This document shows, in pieces, positions 9,362-36,870 of a stretch of 64,000 bases of DNA. The notes below the pieces were generated by a model. It did not search any database, was not told the DNA's origin, and saw only the letters and a list, made by a program, of their open reading frames with translations. Numbering within the stretch: position 1 is the stretch's first letter; every line of letters begins with the position of its first letter. Both the position numbers and the translations under genes were made by a program. The DNA comes from Aequorivita iocasae. Lineage in GTDB: Bacteria > Bacteroidota > Bacteroidia > Flavobacteriales > Flavobacteriaceae. The stretch spans positions 2,356,001 to 2,420,000 of the forward strand of contig NZ_CP068439.1 of assembly GCF_016757735.1 (NCBI RefSeq), written 5' to 3'.

Positions 9362-9404
9362 TGGCAATTCAAGGCGTTTTAAAAATGAAATAATGTCGAT
9401 AGCT

Positions 9405-10124
9405 TTACATTTTATGCACACTGCCCGAATGGCTTTTATTTGAATTTACTGATACAGGGTTTCCGTAATAATTTATATCTCCACCGCTGCTTACATGGGT
9501 TTCAAGTTTTTCCTGAACGTTTACGGTTACTTCGGCACCACTGGATGCTTCCGCATTACAATTTAGCACTAAAAGCTCTTTAGCATTTAATTCACTACCG
9601 CTTGAGGCGTCCGCATTGAGAGATGACGCTTTGCCGGAAATTTTTAAATCGGCACCGCTACTGGTTTTAGCGATTAATTCCTGGGCAAAGACTTCTACTT
9701 CCAAATCGGCACCGCTGCTGCTTTTAAGGCTCAAATTCTGGCTTTTTATTACAGAATTTCCGGTAACATCGGCGCCGCTACTGGCTTCCACAGTATTGAG
9801 CTCTTTGAATGTAACGTAAACTTTTTTGGCATTGGAACGCCCAATATTTTCAGAAGTGGTAATGTGCAGTTTTCCATCTTCCACATCAGTTTCAATATAC
9901 TGAAGCAAATTTTCGTCAGCTTCCACTACAATTTTGTTTTCATCACCTTGGGTAAGATAAACGTCAAGCCCGGCACTGCCGCGTACTTCCGTAAAATCTG
10001 CGGTTACTTCGCGTTCTTCGGTTACAACCTTTCCGTTGCCGTTTTCTCCTGTGGTAATATTCAGGTTACAGGCACCCAAGATAAGTGCTGCGCCTATTGC
10101 GATTATAAAATTTGTTGTTTTCAT
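9405..10124 (-). CDS. Head-GIN domain (DUF2807) lipoprotein
   Basis: This 239-residue protein starts with a lipoprotein signal (lipobox Cys19, LGAC) and then matches the DUF2807 head-GIN family: FTEVRGSAGLDVYLTQGD near residues 44-61 is the family signature. From about residue 110 the motif SSGAD or a close variant recurs at least five times (SSGADVTG, SSGADLEV, SSGADLKI, SSGSELNA, SSGAEVTV), one per turn of a predicted right-handed beta helix. It is the last gene of the operon that includes PadR and the PspC protein, 19 bases after the latter, so it probably acts in the same envelope response. Its biochemical role is unknown. Confidence 0.9.
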   Translation of the reverse strand: MKTTNFIIAIGAALILGACNLNITTGENGNGKVVTEEREVTADFTEVRGSAGLDVYLTQGDENKIVVEADENLLQYIETDVEDGKLHITTSENIGRSNAKKVYVTFKELNTVEASSGADVTGNSVIKSQNLSLKSSSGADLEVEVFAQELIAKTSSGADLKISGKASSLNADASSGSELNAKELLVLNCNAEASSGAEVTVNVQEKLETHVSSGGDINYYGNPVSVNSNKSHSGSVHKM

Positions 10125-29850: not shown

Positions 29851-30372
29851 ATGAAAACAAATATTATAATGAAAGTGATGAATATTATATTCTGGATAAT
29901 ATTCATTGGTTTATGCATAAAAACAGGAGCTTTGCTCGTCTCTCTTTTTGTGACCCTTTTTATAAATTCAAATGGTGCAGCGGATACTTATATGGGGCTG
30001 GATTTGCTAAATGTTTACAATTTTAACGTGGAATATTATCTTGGCATAGCCAGTTTTTTGATAGCGTTGTCGGCTTTGAAAACTTATCTTGCTTATTTAG
30101 TGATAAAACTTTTTATGAAATTTGATATAAATTATCCCTTTAACCAAAAAACAGCCTCGGCAATAATAAATATGAGCTATTACGCGCTCAGTATTGGCGT
30201 AGTTGCTATAATAGCTGAAAACTACGGCAGTCGTATTATGAAACAAGGGTTAATTTTACAAATTGATTGGGGGGCAGAACCGTTTTTGTTTTTTGCGGGT
30301 GTCATTTACATCATCGCATTGGTCTTTAAAAGAGGAGTAGAAATACAAAACGAAAATGAACTAACAATCTAA
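29851..30372 (+). CDS. DUF2975 membrane protein
   Basis: This 173-residue protein has four membrane helices (about residues 8-30, 55-80, 98-122, 140-160) and the DUF2975 layout, including FMKFDINYPFNQKTASAI between helices two and three. DUF2975 proteins are nearly always encoded with a small Cro/CI-type HTH protein, as here two bases downstream. The pair behaves like a membrane component plus transcription factor of unknown signal. Its expression probably depends on the inverted repeats just upstream. Confidence 0.9.
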   Translation: MKTNIIMKVMNIIFWIIFIGLCIKTGALLVSLFVTLFINSNGAADTYMGLDLLNVYNFNVEYYLGIASFLIALSALKTYLAYLVIKLFMKFDINYPFNQKTASAIINMSYYALSIGVVAIIAENYGSRIMKQGLILQIDWGAEPFLFFAGVIYIIALVFKRGVEIQNENELTI

Positions 30373-30374
30373 TT

Positions 30375-30578
30375 ATGCCAATAGTTGTAAACTTGGACGT
30401 AATGATGGCCAAGCGAAAAATGTCATTAAACGAACTTTCTGAAAAAGTTGGGCTCACGCTTTCTAACCTTTCCATCTTAAAAACCGGAAAAGCAAAGGCG
30501 GTACGCTTTAGCACTCTGGAAGCTATTTGCGAAGTTTTGGAATGTCAGCCTGGAGATATTTTAGAATTTGTGGAATGA
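30375..30578 (+). CDS. Small Cro/CI-type HTH regulator (YozG-like)
   Basis: This 67-residue protein is almost entirely a helix-turn-helix of the Cro/C1 (XRE) type. MAKRKMSLNELSEKVGLTLS forms the first helices and the turn, and NLSILKTGKAKAVRFSTLEAICEVLECQPGDILEF completes the domain. It starts two bases after the DUF2975 gene. Such pairs are common in Firmicutes and Bacteroidota. It likely controls its own operon through the inverted repeats upstream; the targets are otherwise unknown. Confidence 0.92.
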   Translation: MPIVVNLDVMMAKRKMSLNELSEKVGLTLSNLSILKTGKAKAVRFSTLEAICEVLECQPGDILEFVE

Positions 30579-30620: not shown

Positions 30621-30691
30621 ACAGTTGAGCATTTCATTTTTACAGTTCAGCATTTTAATTTCTGAAAAGAGTAGCCAATATTTCATCTTTG
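30621..30691 (+). promoter_or_regulatory. LytTR-type operator 1, before the TonB-dependent receptor
   Basis: ACAGTTGAG (30621-30629) and ACAGTTCAG (30642-30650) are 21 bases apart start to start and both fit the LytTR half-site [TA][AC][CA]GTTN[AG][TG]. Thirty-three bases after the second repeat is CATCTTTG (30684-30691), one mismatch from the TAnnTTTG box. The receptor start is at 30717. The regulator is probably the LytTR protein encoded at the end of this gene group. Confidence 0.75.
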
Positions 30692-30716
30692 AACTGAAAA
30701 TAAAACCAACCATTTT

Positions 30717-32870
30717 ATGAAGATTTCAGTTATCACTTTTTTACTAGTTATTTTTCCAAGCTTTCTATTGGCGCAAACCACCATTTCAGGAACGGTTATG
30801 GACAATAAGGGAGTTCCAGTTTTTGGAGCCAATGTTTATTTGGAAGGCACTTACGATGGAAGTACTTCAGATGAAAGCGGAAAATTTTCATTTGAAACTT
30901 CCGAAACCGGAACACAAACCTTGACTATTTCTTATGTTTCTTTTGAGCCCACAAAAATCATTGATGATGTTTCAACGATGAAGCACCTCAAAATAACGCT
31001 TCGCGAAGACGTTAATTCACTGGAAACTGTAACTATTTCCGCCGGATCTTTTTCCGCAGGTGATAACAGCAAAATCTCCGTTTTAAAACCTTTGGACATT
31101 GTTACAACCGCAAGTGCTTTGGGCGATTTTGTGGGGGCGCTACAAACCCTTCCCGGAACCACGACTGTCGCTGAGGACGGTCGCCTCTTTGTACGCGGGG
31201 GTGATGCTGGTGAAACCCAGATTTTTATCGACGGCATTCGTGTGTTTACGCCCTATTCACCTACTGCAAACAATGTTCCTACACGCGGGCGTTTCAGTCC
31301 TTTTCTGTTTGATGGAATTACCTTTTCCACGGGCGGTTATTCTGCCGAATATGGGCAGGCACTGTCTTCCGTTTTATTATTAAATACAATTGATGAACCT
31401 TCGCAAGAAAAGACTGATATCGCCATTATGAGCGTAGGTGGTGGTCTTGGCCATACTGAAAAGTGGGAAAAGAGCTCGTTGAGTGTTAATGCTTCTTATA
31501 TAAATTTAGGACCCTACATAGCAATTTTGCCAGACAGGAATGATTGGCAAAAACCTTTTGAAACAGCTTCGGGAGAAGCGGTTTTTCGGCAAAAGATAGG
31601 CGATGGTCTCTTAAAAATTTATGGAGCTTTTGATACTTCGGATTTTGAACTTACCCAAGAAGACATAAACCAGCCCGAAGGAACACGCTTTAAGCTAAAC
31701 AACCAAAACTTTTACACCAACGCAAGTTACAGTGAAATGCTAAATAAAGGTTGGACCATTTTTGGTGGTGGAAGTTACACTTACGGAAAAACTAAAGTTG
31801 GAATTGATGAAGCAAATATAAAAGATACTGAGAATTCAGCACATCTTAAACTGAAGTTGAAAAAACGTTTTAGCAATCGGTTTAAATTAAATTTTGGAGT
31901 TGAACAATTTTTGACCGACTTCAATGAAGATTATGACGACCCCAATGTTGATGCAAAGTTAGGTTTCAACAATAATATTTCCGCAGCATTTACAGAGGCC
32001 GATATTATTTTTTCACGGAAACTTGCCTTAAAACTGGGCGTTCGTGGGGAGTACAGTGAATTATTTAAAGAGTTTACGGTTTCACCCAGAATTTCTTTTG
32101 CGTACAAAACTGGAAAGAGCAGCCAGCTTTCTTTGGCCTATGGCGATTTCTTTCAGCAACCGGATAGTGAAGTGCTCAAATTCACAAACAATCTGGAAGC
32201 CCAGCATACCCAACATTATATTATGAACTATCAATACTCAGCCAATAATAGGATTTTTCGTGCTGAAGTCTATAGAAAGCAATACACCAATCTTGTAACT
32301 TATAATGATGAATTTCCAGACATAAATACAACATTTAAAAACAATGGCGATGGCTTTGCGCAAGGACTTGATTTGTTTTGGCGCGACAATGAAACACTTA
32401 AAAATATAGATTACTGGGTAAGCTATTCCTACTTGGATACCCAACGGAAATATAAGAATTATCCTTTTGAGGCCACTCCGAGTTTTGCAAATACGCACAA
32501 CCTTTCCGTGGTTGCGAAATACTGGATAAATGATTGGAAAAGCCAGATAGGTTTCAGCTATCAATACGGTAGCGGCAGAACTTACACCGATTTGAACGAG
32601 CCTGGATTTCTTCAGAAAAAAACCAAGGGATATAACAGTTTAAGTTTGAATTGGGCGTATTTAATTTCACAACAAAAAATTCTCTATGCTTCAATAAACA
32701 ATGTTTTTGCTTTTAAAAACGTGAATGGGTATCAATATGCCAAAACTCCCGATATAAATGGAAACTTTGCCCGCCGAGAGTTACTTCCCGCTGCAGATCA
32801 GTTCTTTTTTGTGGGCTTTTTCTGGACCATTAGCGATGACGGCAAGGACAACCAGCTAGATAATCTATAG
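30717..32870 (+). CDS. TonB-dependent outer membrane receptor
   Basis: This 717-residue protein has a signal peptide (about residues 1-19), a carboxypeptidase-regulatory-like beta sandwich (TTISGTVMDNKGVPVFGANV, about residues 21-40), a plug domain (LGDFVGALQTLPGTTTVAEDGRLFVRGG...QIFIDG) and a beta barrel. It is in the size range of small, non-SusC TonB receptors. It imports a bound nutrient or siderophore across the outer membrane using TonB energy; no substrate can be deduced. It is the first gene of a group with a TPR protein, a LytS-type kinase, 2TM proteins and a LytTR regulator, and it carries a LytTR operator. Confidence 0.92.
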   Translation: MKISVITFLLVIFPSFLLAQTTISGTVMDNKGVPVFGANVYLEGTYDGSTSDESGKFSFETSETGTQTLTISYVSFEPTKIIDDVSTMKHLKITLREDVNSLETVTISAGSFSAGDNSKISVLKPLDIVTTASALGDFVGALQTLPGTTTVAEDGRLFVRGGDAGETQIFIDGIRVFTPYSPTANNVPTRGRFSPFLFDGITFSTGGYSAEYGQALSSVLLLNTIDEPSQEKTDIAIMSVGGGLGHTEKWEKSSLSVNASYINLGPYIAILPDRNDWQKPFETASGEAVFRQKIGDGLLKIYGAFDTSDFELTQEDINQPEGTRFKLNNQNFYTNASYSEMLNKGWTIFGGGSYTYGKTKVGIDEANIKDTENSAHLKLKLKKRFSNRFKLNFGVEQFLTDFNEDYDDPNVDAKLGFNNNISAAFTEADIIFSRKLALKLGVRGEYSELFKEFTVSPRISFAYKTGKSSQLSLAYGDFFQQPDSEVLKFTNNLEAQHTQHYIMNYQYSANNRIFRAEVYRKQYTNLVTYNDEFPDINTTFKNNGDGFAQGLDLFWRDNETLKNIDYWVSYSYLDTQRKYKNYPFEATPSFANTHNLSVVAKYWINDWKSQIGFSYQYGSGRTYTDLNEPGFLQKKTKGYNSLSLNWAYLISQQKILYASINNVFAFKNVNGYQYAKTPDINGNFARRELLPAADQFFFVGFFWTISDDGKDNQLDNL

Positions 32871-32875
32871 TAATC

Positions 32876-32946
32876 ACAATTCATCTGTAAAATTCAACAG
32901 TTCAGAATTTCAATTTTTAAAAGCTAAGTTTTTTAGGGGAAATTTG
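32876..32946 (+). promoter_or_regulatory. LytTR-type operator 2, before the TPR-like gene
   Basis: ACAATTCAT (32876-32884, one mismatch to the half-site) and ACAGTTCAG (32897-32905, exact) are again 21 bases apart. A -7-like box GAAATTTG (32939-32946) follows after 33 bases, the same geometry as operator 1. The TPR-like gene starts at 32982. Confidence 0.7.
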
Positions 32947-32981
32947 AACAACAATTAATACTAACTAAAAAATTAGAAACC

Positions 32982-33641
32982 ATGCAAAACGTAGTCACTT
33001 ATTTAATGATTTTTTTCACGGCCCTCATTATGCAGGGGCAAACAGATTCTGCAGTAAATGCAGCTGCCCACCCAACCAAATACCAACAGGGAATGCGTAA
33101 AGCCTTTCAGCTTTGGCAGGAGAACAAATCGTGGGAAGCCGCAAATGTTTTTGAAAGAATCGCGGCAGCAGAACCTGATAACTGGTTGCCTCCTTACTAT
33201 GTAGCTCAAATTAATGTAATCAATAGCTTCACTGAAAAAGACGCAACCAAGCTGAAAGCGCAATTGGATAAAGCACAGGATTTCATTAACGATGCGACTG
33301 CAATTTCAAAAGAGAATCCAGACTTACTGGTTTTACAGGCACAATTATATACGGCTTGGATTGTTTTTGACGGTCAACAATACGGAATGACCTACTCCCC
33401 AAAAGCTTCAGAACTATACAGTAAGGCTTTGGCGCTCGCGCCTAACAATCCACGTATAATTTTGGCAAAAGCCGAATGGGATATGGGCGGTGCAAAATAT
33501 TTTGGGCAATCCATTGAGCCCTATTGTAAAGACATTCAGCGGGCCATTGAACTTTTTGCTACCTTTAAACCAGCAGGTGAATTTTACCCAACATACGGCG
33601 AAGAACGCGCAAAGCAGATACAAGCAGAAAGCTGTAAATAA
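32982..33641 (+). CDS. Secreted TPR-like protein
   Basis: This 219-residue protein has a signal peptide (about residues 1-19) and a helical repeat region of the tetratricopeptide type (KAFQLWQENKSWEAANVFERIAAAEPDNWLPPYYVA, then SELYSKALALAPNNPRIILAKAEW). It is expected in the periplasm, as a scaffold for protein contacts. Its own LytTR-type operator and its place between the receptor and the kinase suggest that it works with the receptor or with the sensor kinase. The exact partner is unknown. Confidence 0.8.
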   Translation: MQNVVTYLMIFFTALIMQGQTDSAVNAAAHPTKYQQGMRKAFQLWQENKSWEAANVFERIAAAEPDNWLPPYYVAQINVINSFTEKDATKLKAQLDKAQDFINDATAISKENPDLLVLQAQLYTAWIVFDGQQYGMTYSPKASELYSKALALAPNNPRIILAKAEWDMGGAKYFGQSIEPYCKDIQRAIELFATFKPAGEFYPTYGEERAKQIQAESCK

Positions 33642-33649
33642 AAAATTTG

Positions 33650-33696
33650 CTGCAAATTCACGAGTGTTTTTTTAAATCATTCGTGAATTCGTAGCT
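33650..33696 (+). other. Long imperfect inverted repeat between the TPR and kinase genes
   Basis: The segments 33650-33667 and 33679-33696 can pair over 18 positions with two mismatches and one G-U pair, with an eleven-base T-rich loop. It is not a standard terminator because the T run lies in the loop, not after the stem. It may stabilise the upstream mRNA end or attenuate read-through into the kinase gene. Confidence 0.5.
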
Positions 33697-33713
33697 AACA
33701 AATAATTATTTCA

Positions 33714-35042
33714 ATGCGTATTTTAAAGGATTTTGGTAAGGCTTTTTTTGTAGGAACCCTAGTTTTTATTATTCTGGGTTTGATACAGTATGCCAACGGA
33801 TATCAGTATGATAATGGAAGGGATATTCTTATCACTTTTCTATATAATCAGCTGTATGCCGTGATTCTTTATATGGTGAATGCGTATTATTTTGATTTTT
33901 TGTTAAAGGTCTTTCCTAATGAAGTCTTTAAGCTGAAGAACCTTTTAAAAGGACTTTTCGGGGGAATTCTTGTTACTCTTTTGGCACTTTTCCTAATAAG
34001 GATCATAACGGAAGTGCTTATAGATGGAAGGGGCTTTTCAGAGTTTATTGCTTCCGAAAAGATGCAGTATTACTACATTTCATTTGTAATATCTGTAGTG
34101 GTCACGACCATTTTTTATGTGGCCTATTACTACAGAAATAAGCAGCAAACTATTGTAAAGGAACAGAAAATAATTGCCGGTACGGCTTCGGCAAAATTTG
34201 ATGCCCTTAAAAACCAACTGGATCCGCATTTTCTTTTCAATAGTTTAAATGTACTCACCAGTTTAATTGAAGAAAATCCCGAAGCCGCTACACGTTTTAC
34301 TACTTCGCTTTCCAAAGTGTATCGCTATGTTTTGGAACAAAAAAATAAAGAGTTGGTTACGCTGGAAGAGGAACTGAGGTTTGCGGAACTTTATATGTCG
34401 CTACTGGCGGTACGTTTTGAGGACAGTATTGTTTTTACTTCACCTTCAAAATTGGAAAACCCGCAGGCCAAGGTAGTTCCGTTATCGCTTCAACTTTTGT
34501 TGGAAAACGCAGTTAAGCACAACCAGGTTATGCCTTCGAAAAAACTTTATATAACTATTTCAGAAGAAAACGGCAATTTGGTTGTCACCAATAACAGTCA
34601 GCCAAAACAGGTTTTAAAAGAGAGTACGGGCGTTGGGTTGCGCAACATTCGCGACAGGTATGCACTCTTGACGAAACGCCCTGTAATTATTAACGAAAGC
34701 GAAAAAAAGTTCAGCATTGCAATACCCATTTTGGGTGAAAATCTTCAAATTATGAACACACCGGATGCTTATATTTCAGAAAAAAAGTACAAACTCGCTA
34801 AAAAACGGGTGGAAAAACTAAAAGGGTTTTACATTCACTTAACGCTATATATTTTAATGGCTCCGGTATTTATTTACTTAAATTATATTTCCCGGGCGGG
34901 CTTTCCGTGGGCGCTTTTCCCGATAGTTGGTTGGGGCATTGGGGTTATGGGCCACGCTGCGGAAACTTTTAATTACAACCCGTTTTTTGGCAAGGATTGG
35001 GAAGCGCGTAAAATTCGTGAGCTAATGGATAAGGATGAATAA
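33714..35042 (+). CDS. LytS-type sensor histidine kinase with C-terminal 2TM domain
   Basis: This 442-residue kinase has four N-terminal helices (about residues 10-30, 40-62, 80-105, 125-145) with no recognisable ligand domain. The LytS-type kinase core follows: LKNQLDPHFLFNSLN with the phosphorylated His near residue 172, LLLENAVKHN as N box and GVGLRNIRDRY as G box. An unusual addition is a 2TM domain (about residues 355-442: YKLAKKRVEKLKGFY, then GWGIGVMGHAAETF and GKDWEARKI), the same domain as in the three following small proteins. It should phosphorylate the LytTR regulator at the end of the group. Confidence 0.92.
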   Translation: MRILKDFGKAFFVGTLVFIILGLIQYANGYQYDNGRDILITFLYNQLYAVILYMVNAYYFDFLLKVFPNEVFKLKNLLKGLFGGILVTLLALFLIRIITEVLIDGRGFSEFIASEKMQYYYISFVISVVVTTIFYVAYYYRNKQQTIVKEQKIIAGTASAKFDALKNQLDPHFLFNSLNVLTSLIEENPEAATRFTTSLSKVYRYVLEQKNKELVTLEEELRFAELYMSLLAVRFEDSIVFTSPSKLENPQAKVVPLSLQLLLENAVKHNQVMPSKKLYITISEENGNLVVTNNSQPKQVLKESTGVGLRNIRDRYALLTKRPVIINESEKKFSIAIPILGENLQIMNTPDAYISEKKYKLAKKRVEKLKGFYIHLTLYILMAPVFIYLNYISRAGFPWALFPIVGWGIGVMGHAAETFNYNPFFGKDWEARKIRELMDKDE

Positions 35043-35045
35043 ACG

Positions 35046-35116
35046 ACAGTCCATCCCCCTAAAGCTACAGTTGGGAGATCGTATTTTTTTGAAGCCTTTA
35101 ATCTTTGATACCTTTA
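35046..35116 (+). promoter_or_regulatory. LytTR-type operator 3, before the 2TM genes
   Basis: ACAGTCCAT (35046-35054, one mismatch) and ACAGTTGGG (35067-35075, exact) are 21 bases apart, and TACCTTTA (35109-35116), one mismatch from TAnnTTTG, follows after 33 bases. This repeats the geometry of the other two sites. The first 2TM gene starts at 35140. Confidence 0.68.
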
Positions 35117-35139
35117 TACTATAATTAAAAACTACAATT

Positions 35140-35451
35140 ATGGAAACCGAAAATAACAAAGACAACAAATATTTTAAAGCCAAACAACGGGTGGCAGAGA
35201 TCAAGAAATTCTACACCAGTTTGATGTTTTATGTAGTATTCATTTGCGCTTTGGCAGGACTGAATTACTATACCAATGAATTAAGGTATCCATGGTTTTT
35301 GTGGGCAGCATTCGGTTGGGGAATCGGGATCTTTTTTCAGGCCATTAAAACATTTAGATGGGCGCCATTTATTGGCAAGGACTGGGAAGAAAAAAAGATG
35401 AAACAGTTTATGGAAGAGGAGGAACAAAAATCTAAAAATAATTGGAACTAA
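35140..35451 (+). CDS. 2TM domain protein 1
   Basis: This 103-residue protein is a free-standing 2TM domain. A basic start (KAKQRVAEIKKFYTSLMFY) leads into helix one (about residues 24-44). Helix two (about 52-72) contains the family motif AFGWGIGIFFQAIKTF, and the end is GKDWEEKKMKQFM. The same elements appear at the C-terminus of the kinase upstream. It may pair with the kinase in the membrane and tune its activity, or form hetero-oligomers with the two other copies; no direct evidence is available. It overlaps the next gene by ten bases. Confidence 0.88.
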   Translation: METENNKDNKYFKAKQRVAEIKKFYTSLMFYVVFICALAGLNYYTNELRYPWFLWAAFGWGIGIFFQAIKTFRWAPFIGKDWEEKKMKQFMEEEEQKSKNNWN

Positions 35452-35765
35452 TGTATTCTGAAAATTTAAAATGGAGAAAGGCCCGTAGAAGGGTAGATGC
35501 GCTAAAAGGATTCTACAAACATCTGTTGGTTTATATACTTGTAAATGTTGCCCTGTTTATTATAAGGGGAAGGGTTTTGGAATTTTTTCAAATTGAATCG
35601 AACGATAAAAATTTTGTTGAGTGGATTGATTGGAATATTTTGATAGTTCCACTGTTTTGGGGCATCGGGCTACTCTTTCACGCGGCTAAGGTTTTTCAAT
35701 ATAAATTCAAGTTCCTAAAAAACTGGGAAGACAGACAACTAAAAAAATTTCTTAAAGAAGAATAA
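35442..35765 (+). CDS. 2TM domain protein 2
   Basis: This 107-residue 2TM protein shows the same plan: KWRKARRRVDALKGFYKHLLVY, first helix, a longer loop of about 25 residues (VLEFFQIESNDKNFVEWIDW), then FWGIGLLFHAAKVF and the tail NWEDRQLKKFL. It differs from the first copy mainly in the loop between the helices, which would face the periplasm. The start codon overlaps the end of the preceding gene, so translation is probably coupled. Confidence 0.88.
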   Translation: MELMYSENLKWRKARRRVDALKGFYKHLLVYILVNVALFIIRGRVLEFFQIESNDKNFVEWIDWNILIVPLFWGIGLLFHAAKVFQYKFKFLKNWEDRQLKKFLKEE

Positions 35766-35776
35766 AAATCACTACA

Positions 35777-36082
35777 ATGGACACCAAGAAAAGTTTGGCC
35801 TACCTGCGGGCAAAGAAAAAAGTGGAAACCCTAAAGGGATTTTACAGTCACTTGGCGGTGTATATAATTGTTAACATAGCGATTATCCTTGTTTCGGCCA
35901 ATGTTTTTAATGCTAAGGAAATAAACTTTGCACATTGGAGCAATTACGTTACCGCTATTTTTTGGGGCATCGGTTTGGTGTCTCACGCCCTGTACGTGTT
36001 CTTTGTTATGAATGTGAACAATAATTTTCTAAAACGCTGGGAAGAGAAAAAAATAAAGCAATTTTTGGAGCAAGACCTTTAG
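35777..36082 (+). CDS. 2TM domain protein 3
   Basis: This 101-residue protein is the third free-standing 2TM domain, with AYLRAKKKVETLKGFYSHLAVY, helix one, a short loop (FNAKEINFAHWSNYV), IFWGIGLVSHALYVF in helix two and RWEEKKIKQFL at the end. It lies eleven bases after copy two and shortly before the response regulator gene. Four 2TM domains in one gene group, one of them on the kinase, suggest duplication within the locus. Confidence 0.88.
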   Translation: MDTKKSLAYLRAKKKVETLKGFYSHLAVYIIVNIAIILVSANVFNAKEINFAHWSNYVTAIFWGIGLVSHALYVFFVMNVNNNFLKRWEEKKIKQFLEQDL

Positions 36083-36114
36083 AAATCTACAACTTGAAAC
36101 CAGAAACCAACCCT

Positions 36115-36870
36115 ATGAACGTACTGATCATCGAAGACGAAAAACCCTCTGCTCGTTACCTGCAGCGGATGCTCGAAAAGCAAAAGGTAAACGTAAACCA
36201 AATGCTGCATAGCGTGGAAGAAGCTGTGGTGTGGTTTCAAAACAATGAACATCCCGATTTGATATTTCTCGATATTCAATTGAGCGACGGACTTTCCTTT
36301 GAAATTTTTGATACGGTGGAAGTAAACAGTGCAATAATTTTCACCACGGCTTTTGATGAATATGCCTTGCAGGCATTCAAACTGAATAGTATTGACTATC
36401 TATTGAAACCAATTGACGAAGCCGAGCTTCAGGCTGCCGTTAAAAAGTATAAATCCTTTAAACCTAGCCCCGCAAACGTACAGCTCAATTTTGAGGATAT
36501 TAAAAAACTGCTCGTAAATCCTGTGGAGCGCGAGTATAAAAAGCGATTTACCACAAAAATAGGGCAGCACATAAAAATGATTTCTGTTGATGAAATAGAA
36601 TGTTTTTATTCTGAAAACAAAGGTACATACGCACACACCGTAGATGGCCGCGATTATCTATTGGAAACTACTTTGGAACAACTGGAGCAGGAACTTTCTC
36701 CGGCAACGTTTTTTAGAATAAGCCGGAAGTTTTACATAAATATCAATTCAATAAAAGATATAATTGCGTACACAAATTCCCGGCTTCAATTAAAGCTTAA
36801 TAGTTTTAAGGGACAGGAAGTGATTGTAGCCCGCGAGCGTGTTAAGGATTTCAAGCTTTGGTTGGAGTAG
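36115..36870 (+). CDS. LytTR-type response regulator
   Basis: This regulator of about 251 residues has an N-terminal receiver domain (MNVLIIEDEKPSARYL; phosphorylated Asp in LIFLDIQLSDG near residue 52; FKLNSIDYLLKPID). A C-terminal LytTR DNA-binding domain follows (ISVDEIECFYSENKGTYAHT, FFRISRKFYININSI). The ATG at 36115 gives the standard receiver start; an in-frame ATG seven codons earlier adds only MKPETNP. LytTR proteins bind two 9-bp direct repeats 21 bp apart, and three such sites lie in this gene group, so it probably controls the whole module including itself. Confidence 0.93.
   Translation: MNVLIIEDEKPSARYLQRMLEKQKVNVNQMLHSVEEAVVWFQNNEHPDLIFLDIQLSDGLSFEIFDTVEVNSAIIFTTAFDEYALQAFKLNSIDYLLKPIDEAELQAAVKKYKSFKPSPANVQLNFEDIKKLLVNPVEREYKKRFTTKIGQHIKMISVDEIECFYSENKGTYAHTVDGRDYLLETTLEQLEQELSPATFFRISRKFYININSIKDIIAYTNSRLQLKLNSFKGQEVIVARERVKDFKLWLE

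Follow-up and report, generated by a model that had tools for sequence, protein, structure and literature searches.

The BtsSR system of Escherichia coli consists of a LytS-type kinase and a regulator with a receiver and a LytTR domain, and works through tandem repeats; the half-site of the LytTR consensus can be written ACAGTTNRK. YpdAB of the same species (target yhjX) is built from the same parts, with a single transporter target for YpdB, and LytTR sites in general have spacers of 11–13 bp (PMC4847170). The LytTR regulatory systems (LRS) of Streptococcus mutans, HdrRM and BrsRM, have 9-bp direct repeats lying mostly 12 bp apart, whose distance to the promoter downstream is fixed and strongly favours a position 10 bp ahead of the -35 region, together with membrane protein genes beside the regulator gene and positive autoregulation, and LytTR repeats in Bacteroidota are already in print for LRS-like operons of Bacteroides, whose direct repeats are 11 bp long and 11 bp apart (PMC6193735). 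Another relevant system is HusA of Porphyromonas gingivalis, which binds porphyrin and is thought to pass it to the TonB receptor HusB; HusA has been called the sole tetratricopeptide repeat (TPR)-like fold with porphyrin binding, and its homologues have been noted as spread in the phylum (PMC6173696). Here we analyse a 64,000-nt stretch of Aequorivita iocasae DNA (contig NZ_CP068439.1, positions 2,356,001 to 2,420,000; hereafter the window, whose own numbering is used throughout, the operators, boxes and genes from 30621 to 36870 all being on the plus strand), in which three LytTR-type operators lie among genes for a TonB-dependent receptor, a HusA-like protein, a LytS-type kinase, 2TM proteins and a LytTR regulator. 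We hold with good confidence that the three sites are operators of the regulator encoded at 36115–36870, the partner of the 2TM-fused kinase encoded at 33714–35042, in an activated and autoregulated circuit over a HusA-type importer.

The three sites share one layout, read directly from the sequence: a 9-bp half-site, a 12-bp spacer, a second 9-bp half-site, a gap of 33 bp and an 8-bp box resembling a -7 element. Operator 1, upstream of the receptor gene, has half-sites ACAGTTGAG at 30621–30629 and ACAGTTCAG at 30642–30650 and is followed by the box CATCTTTG at 30684–30691. Operator 2 begins six nt past the receptor stop and comprises ACAATTCAT at 32876–32884 and again ACAGTTCAG at 32897–32905, with the box GAAATTTG at 32939–32946, and operator 3, beginning four nt past the kinase stop, comprises ACAGTCCAT at 35046–35054 and ACAGTTGGG at 35067–35075, with the box TACCTTTA at 35109–35116. 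The start-to-start distance is 21 bp in all three pairs, and the positions and spacings given by the first-pass annotation, which was made from the letters alone, are exact. The first half-site of operator 2 and that of operator 3 are each one base off ACAGTTNRK. Both in the window and in held-out loci (see below), the sites have the paired 9-bp direct repeats, with a spacer of about 12 bp, that are expected of a LytTR-type operator.

Three half-site pairs with at most one mismatch occur in the window, compared with a mean of 0.01 in 100 dinucleotide shuffles, none of which reached three, and the three operator-plus-box matches at up to two mismatches likewise compare with a shuffle mean of 0.01, which bears out the original view that a spacing shared three times is very unlikely to arise by chance. 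The whole genome (3,353,883 bp) holds four half-site pairs at up to one mismatch, three of them being these sites. When the operator and box were searched together at up to one mismatch, just these three were returned, with none in the reversed control; at up to three mismatches one further match appeared, carrying three mismatches, with two matches in the reversed control. Therefore, the pattern-recognisable regulon in this genome is this locus. The genome-wide scan that had been proposed for defining the regulon thus gives only these three promoters in A. iocasae itself, and in relatives it also takes in DUF2141 genes, GIN/DUF2807 genes and a few other genes.

Related genomes had been named beforehand as the place where the idea could fail, and there the sites proved to be conserved, in the genus, in the family and in held-out loci. 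Because the refined half-site pattern used, ACARTTSRK, was fitted in part to these sites and their relatives, the held-out loci provide the fairer test; they derive from a second set of 80 named loci, 6 of which were dropped as sharing DNA with the first set of 64 relatives' loci, leaving 74. Counting half-sites alone, with one mismatch allowed in each, 21 bp was the dominant spacing, seen in 128 pairs from the first set and in 112 from the held-out loci, the next-commonest spacing having 10 and 9 pairs, the medians being 2 and 3 and the reversed controls reaching at most 3 and 6. The box stood at offset 33 in 121 of the 128 pairs and in 107 of the 112. The opposite strand of the held-out loci gave 15 pairs at 21 bp (next spacing, 9), which we read as sites in the reverse orientation. 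Operator plus box at up to two mismatches occurred at least once in 71 of the 74 held-out loci, with no sites in the reversed control, and 54 of 99 relatives' genomes contained a match at up to one mismatch, with one reversed-control match.

Placement was then scored gene by gene at up to three mismatches, leaving uncounted those loci in which a gene start could not be placed (hence the varying totals) and taking 240 bases around the kinase end as the test region for a site after the kinase. Among genus loci, a site stands before the receptor gene in 26 of 26, before the TPR-like (HusA-like) gene in 25 of 27 and after the kinase gene in 27 of 28, while 0 of 530 shuffles passed; in both misses at the TPR-like gene (G020 and G025), a DUF2141 gene intervenes between the operator and the TPR-like gene. 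For other genera of the family the corresponding counts are 9/9, 11/13 and 7/32. The first description of the sites as preceding the receptor and TPR-like genes therefore holds well, and the placement before the 2TM genes holds in the genus but is largely confined to it and its near kin. An operator directly upstream of the regulator gene was also considered and was rejected, as none was seen in 25 genus loci or in 31 loci of other genera. Taken together, the comparison of related loci supports both LytTR-type operators with a fixed geometry and a set of jointly controlled promoters.

In the start-site map of Flavobacterium psychrophilum, the sigma-A box is TAnnTTTG at -12 to -5 (PMC9723704). 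We adopted its numbering for a promoter profile of sites chosen on half-sites alone, 294 in all, of which 256 were kept after a 75% redundancy filter; 271 of the 294 have the box at offset 33. In the profile, the half-sites occupy -75 to -67 and -54 to -46, with an A-tract at -61 to -58 within the spacer, followed by a T-tract that spans -36 to -33 (94% T at -35) and the box [G/C]AnnTTTG at -12 to -5, whose first base is G in 42%, C in 33% and T in 17%. With the second half-site ending at -46, the T-tract starting at -36 and the box at -12, the operator has a fixed position just upstream of -35, as is typical of LytTR operators. The promoters are like flavobacterial sigma-A promoters in the A and TTTG positions and in start-site spacing (PMC9723704), but the first T is mostly G or C here, which would suit promoters that depend on an activator.

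Of the 271 boxed sites, 92% have a purine at the predicted +1, and a pyrimidine–purine step falls at -1/+1 in 214 of these 271 promoters (a count that is not redundancy-filtered), compared with 115 at the next best position. Because this signal played no part in the selection of sites, it supports the boxes as working promoters. In the window, transcription is predicted to start at about 30696 (G, preceded by T), 32951 (A, preceded by A) and 35121 (A, preceded by T), with the pyrimidine–purine step at promoters 1 and 3. The box of promoter 3 keeps T at -12 yet ends in A (TACCTTTA; genus relatives have TACTTTTA and similar), unlike the commoner [G/C]AnnTTTG, and this variant possibly confers a different strength. 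At order level (L123–L125), some of the half-sites have drifted (to ACCGTTCAG and the like), and a number of boxes lie at offset 34 with the full TAnnTTTG.

Outside the kinase loci of relatives, we examined 40 listed operator-plus-box matches, and 39 sites in those stretches passed. These precede DUF2141 genes (11), receptor orthologues (9), GIN/DUF2807 genes (7), beta-lactamase-family genes (3) and one small secreted family without a Pfam name (2), with four before other genes and three for which no reading frame was found. The receptor was searched for in 24 genomes whose kinase locus, over the stretch analysed, lacks it or shows only part of it: 10 of the 24 gave no match at E 1e-100, and in the remaining 14 it is encoded elsewhere, some 5 kb off at the closest and on another contig at the farthest. 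Of these 14 receptors, 13 retain the operator upstream, the single miss being a protein of 35% identity.

For DUF2141, 30 of 49 listed matches had loci, and the operator was found in 17 of the 30 (L298–L313, L316). Sixteen of these 17 score at least 70 bits and one scores 64, and since the 13 loci without the operator all score 68 bits or less, weak DUF2141 matches were rejected as targets. A DUF2141 target in A. iocasae was rejected as well, there being no DUF2141 match in its genome, and this regulon member therefore seems to have been lost or never gained there. The window does have a GIN/DUF2807 gene (about 9400–10110, minus strand), which was rejected as a target because its start lies right behind another reading frame and no operator turned up there in the genome scan; relatives from other genera do carry an operator before their GIN gene, unlike this one.

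The kinase encoded at 33714–35042 combines a His_kinase domain (PF06580) with a C-terminal 2TM domain (PF13239), and the regulator encoded at 36115–36870, which has no operator of its own, combines by Pfam a receiver with a LytTR DNA-binding domain, so that the earlier statement that the same locus encodes a LytTR regulator was right. H172 of the kinase is invariant among 10 aligned sequences (alignment A1) and D53 of the regulator among 9 (alignment A2); domains and conserved residues together place the pair among LytS/LytTR two-component systems. Classical members have a LytS sensor region, which was not found in this kinase, the N terminus having just a SLAC1 match below the Pfam cut-off. 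AlphaFold gives a weak model for this kinase (pLDDT 68.6, pTM 0.37). NCBIfam offers no name for the kinase or the 2TM protein, and for the receptor, the TPR-like gene and, among the best rows, the regulator its matches all fall below the cut-off; against the BtsR equivalog NF008677 the regulator scores 106.1 bits, well short of the curated cut-off of 246.

The locus thus resembles YpdAB and BtsSR in its LytS-type kinase, receiver–LytTR regulator and tandem repeats, and differs from both in that the kinase ends in a 2TM domain and shows no LytS-type sensor domain above the Pfam cut-off, and in its target, a TonB receptor accompanied by a HusA-like protein. It resembles the LRS in its 9-bp repeats at a fixed distance from the promoter, in having membrane protein genes beside the regulator gene and in its probable positive autoregulation. 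At the same time, the regulator here includes a receiver domain and is paired with a kinase, where the LRS have a membrane inhibitor in place of the kinase; the 2TM proteins are not known as inhibitors, and the Bacteroides regulators carry transmembrane segments.

In the circuit that we propose, the kinase would phosphorylate the regulator (H172 to D53), and two LytTR domains would each occupy one half-site, at about -71 and -50, positions separated by two turns of the helix and facing the same side of the DNA. The bound regulator would then contact RNA polymerase at a sigma-A promoter whose -35 region is T-rich and whose -7 box is sub-optimal, the first T of the box being mostly replaced by G or C, and turn the promoter on. 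Promoter 1 would serve the receptor gene, promoter 2 a putative operon of the HusA-like protein and the kinase, and promoter 3 another of the 2TM proteins (a, 35140–35451; b, 35451–35765; c, 35777–36082; all PF13239) and the regulator, an arrangement by which activation would amplify the sensor–regulator pair and the importer together. The whole amounts to a well-defined and conserved LytS/LytTR circuit over a HusA-type uptake module, probably with positive autoregulation.

The receptor (30717–32870, 717 aa) has CarbopepD_reg_2, plug and barrel domains by Pfam, and the sole match to it in a sequence search of the PDB was an 85-residue chain named SusC homolog. The gene behind operator 2 (32982–33641) encodes a secreted alpha-solenoid protein of 219 aa with weak TPR matches in Pfam; its placement in the first-pass annotation stands, and its label as TPR-like gives way to that of a HusA-haemophore homologue. 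Its model (pLDDT 87.8) has HusA of P. gingivalis as best Foldseek match (E 1e-6, TM 0.74/0.80; the next by E-value has a query TM of 0.50), and the profile of its family aligns with HusA over positions 32–200 of 201 (E 1.2e-25), so that near-full-length similarity and fold agree on membership of the HusA family. A generic TPR identity was rejected, as TPR chains reach E 3e-6 over stretches of 20–38 residues, compared with 1e-25 over 169 positions for HusA.

The HusA-like family was found in 113 of 395 sampled genomes of the phylum, and 20 loci beyond the order (L371–L390; 15 from the same class and 5 from elsewhere in the phylum) were picked from these by hand, with stronger matches favoured. 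All 20 have a receptor homologue, 28–45% identical, just upstream of the HusA-like gene and within about 0.7 kb by tblastn ends, with a DUF2141 gene between the two in L385 and a 2TM-like stretch in L382. Considering that the receptor homologue adjoins the HusA-like gene in every one of these loci, and that the window has the same arrangement of a HusA-family secreted protein beside a TonB receptor as HusA/HusB, the two likely form an importer pair. Twelve of the 20 distant pairs have no matching LytS/LytTR pair nearby. The excerpts available of the HusA paper make no mention of a LytTR regulator for HusA/HusB (PMC6173696).

Most likely the pair takes up a ligand that is small and hydrophobic, and this may be haem or porphyrin. 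We would give about even chances to the alternative that the ligand is of another kind, or that the set serves envelope stress, which concerns function only and is compatible with the operator reading. Of the nine docking and groove residues listed for HusA (PMC6173696), when read by eye from the profile alignment, F80 alone is kept, three are replaced conservatively and five are changed, W130 and Y164 among them; moreover, the GIN/DUF2807 members of the regulon belong to the Toastrack group, which has been tied to membrane stress (PMC11237479). These points are balanced by the similarity to HusA in both sequence and fold and by the linkage to the receptor in all 20 distant loci.

As to the protein that acts on the sites, the case for binding by the locus regulator is strong, although not proven. 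Among 60 genomes of the family, operator matches were found in 52 of 53 with a full-length kinase and in 1 of 7 without (p 1e-6), and with one genome per genus in 25 of 26 and 1 of 7 (p 4e-5). Beyond the order, at up to three mismatches, the operator was present in 6 of the 8 loci that have the kinase and regulator close by and in 0 of the 12 that do not (p 7e-4; the loci cover about 4 kb downstream, so that these 12 genomes may have a kinase elsewhere), and the reversed sequence, the opposite strand and 22 other box offsets all yielded zero matches in these loci.

Several observations, along with the divergent groove residues described above, weigh against our reading. Promoter 2 has no pyrimidine at -1, and three held-out loci have no site at up to two mismatches, two of which (L231 and L249) start less than 500 bases from a contig end and one of which (L221) is a real miss. 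Site 3 is absent from 25 of 32 loci of other genera, and at order level the site was found before the receptor in 3 of 5 loci (1 of 25 shuffles also passing) and after the kinase in 0 of 5. One family genome (G038) has the kinase and no operator match at up to one mismatch, and the same holds for four order-level genomes (G074, G087, G098 and G106) whose kinase match covers most of the length. In G033, operators precede GIN and DUF2141 genes (L168, L310) while the regulator is only 30% identical. The A. iocasae genome has eight LytTR domains, each of which is an eligible binder. Finally, since the genomes are related, the counts are not independent events.

The case of G033, which has no clear cognate kinase or regulator, and whose GIN match is equalled by one reversed-control match, suggests that another LytTR protein may use such sites. 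With eight LytTR domains in the A. iocasae genome, the operators could then be real and yet be bound by another or several of its LytTR regulators, the locus regulator being one candidate. We regard this as unlikely, given that every site in this genome at up to one mismatch sits in the cognate locus and that operators co-occur with this kinase and regulator both inside and outside the family. Binding by the locus regulator thus remains our preferred reading, and it is less likely still that this regulator represses, the sites being silencers that are relieved by the signal: they lie at -75 to -46, upstream of the promoter core rather than over it, the -7 boxes are weak, and published LytTR sites at such positions activate (PMC6193735, PMC4847170). 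That the fixed spacing is an artefact of chance or of shared ancestry in an AT-rich region is barely credible, since, although the spacer and flanks are AT-rich and the compared genomes are kin, shuffles and reversed patterns are almost empty (the exception being the 1 in 25 order-level shuffles) and identical geometry precedes other genes on other contigs.

Eight of the distant loci have a kinase, and in these its match stops near residue 340–350, ahead of the 2TM domain, whereas all ten family and order kinases of alignment A1 carry that domain; the fusion therefore looks like a later addition. Our guess, from the shared domain and, in the genus, the shared operator, is that the free 2TM proteins act as modulators of the kinase. 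A broader scenario, which we put forward tentatively and consider rather doubtful, is that the circuit is old in Bacteroidota and that its LytS/LytTR pair detects what a HusA-type haemophore–receptor importer carries and amplifies importer and sensor, the kinase of Flavobacteriaceae and their near kin having gained a 2TM domain with which free 2TM paralogues, in the genus under the same operator, would pair as a membrane feedback brake.

In the open-licence PubMed Central literature, as far as its available excerpts go, we found no study of this locus, operator or regulon. The present analysis adds a sharp 71-bp operator–promoter rule and a regulon readable from flavobacterial genomes, a lead on the regulation and function of HusA-like proteins beyond Porphyromonas and a regulatory setting for the 2TM domain. 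Because HusA has been called the only porphyrin-binding protein with a TPR-like fold (PMC6173696), a widespread and receptor-linked HusA-like family makes the ligand testable. Directly 5' of operator 1, at 29851–30578, the window also encodes a DUF2975-like membrane protein (below the Pfam cut-off) and a Cro/C1-type HTH_26 regulator, a pair that is kept in many genus loci.

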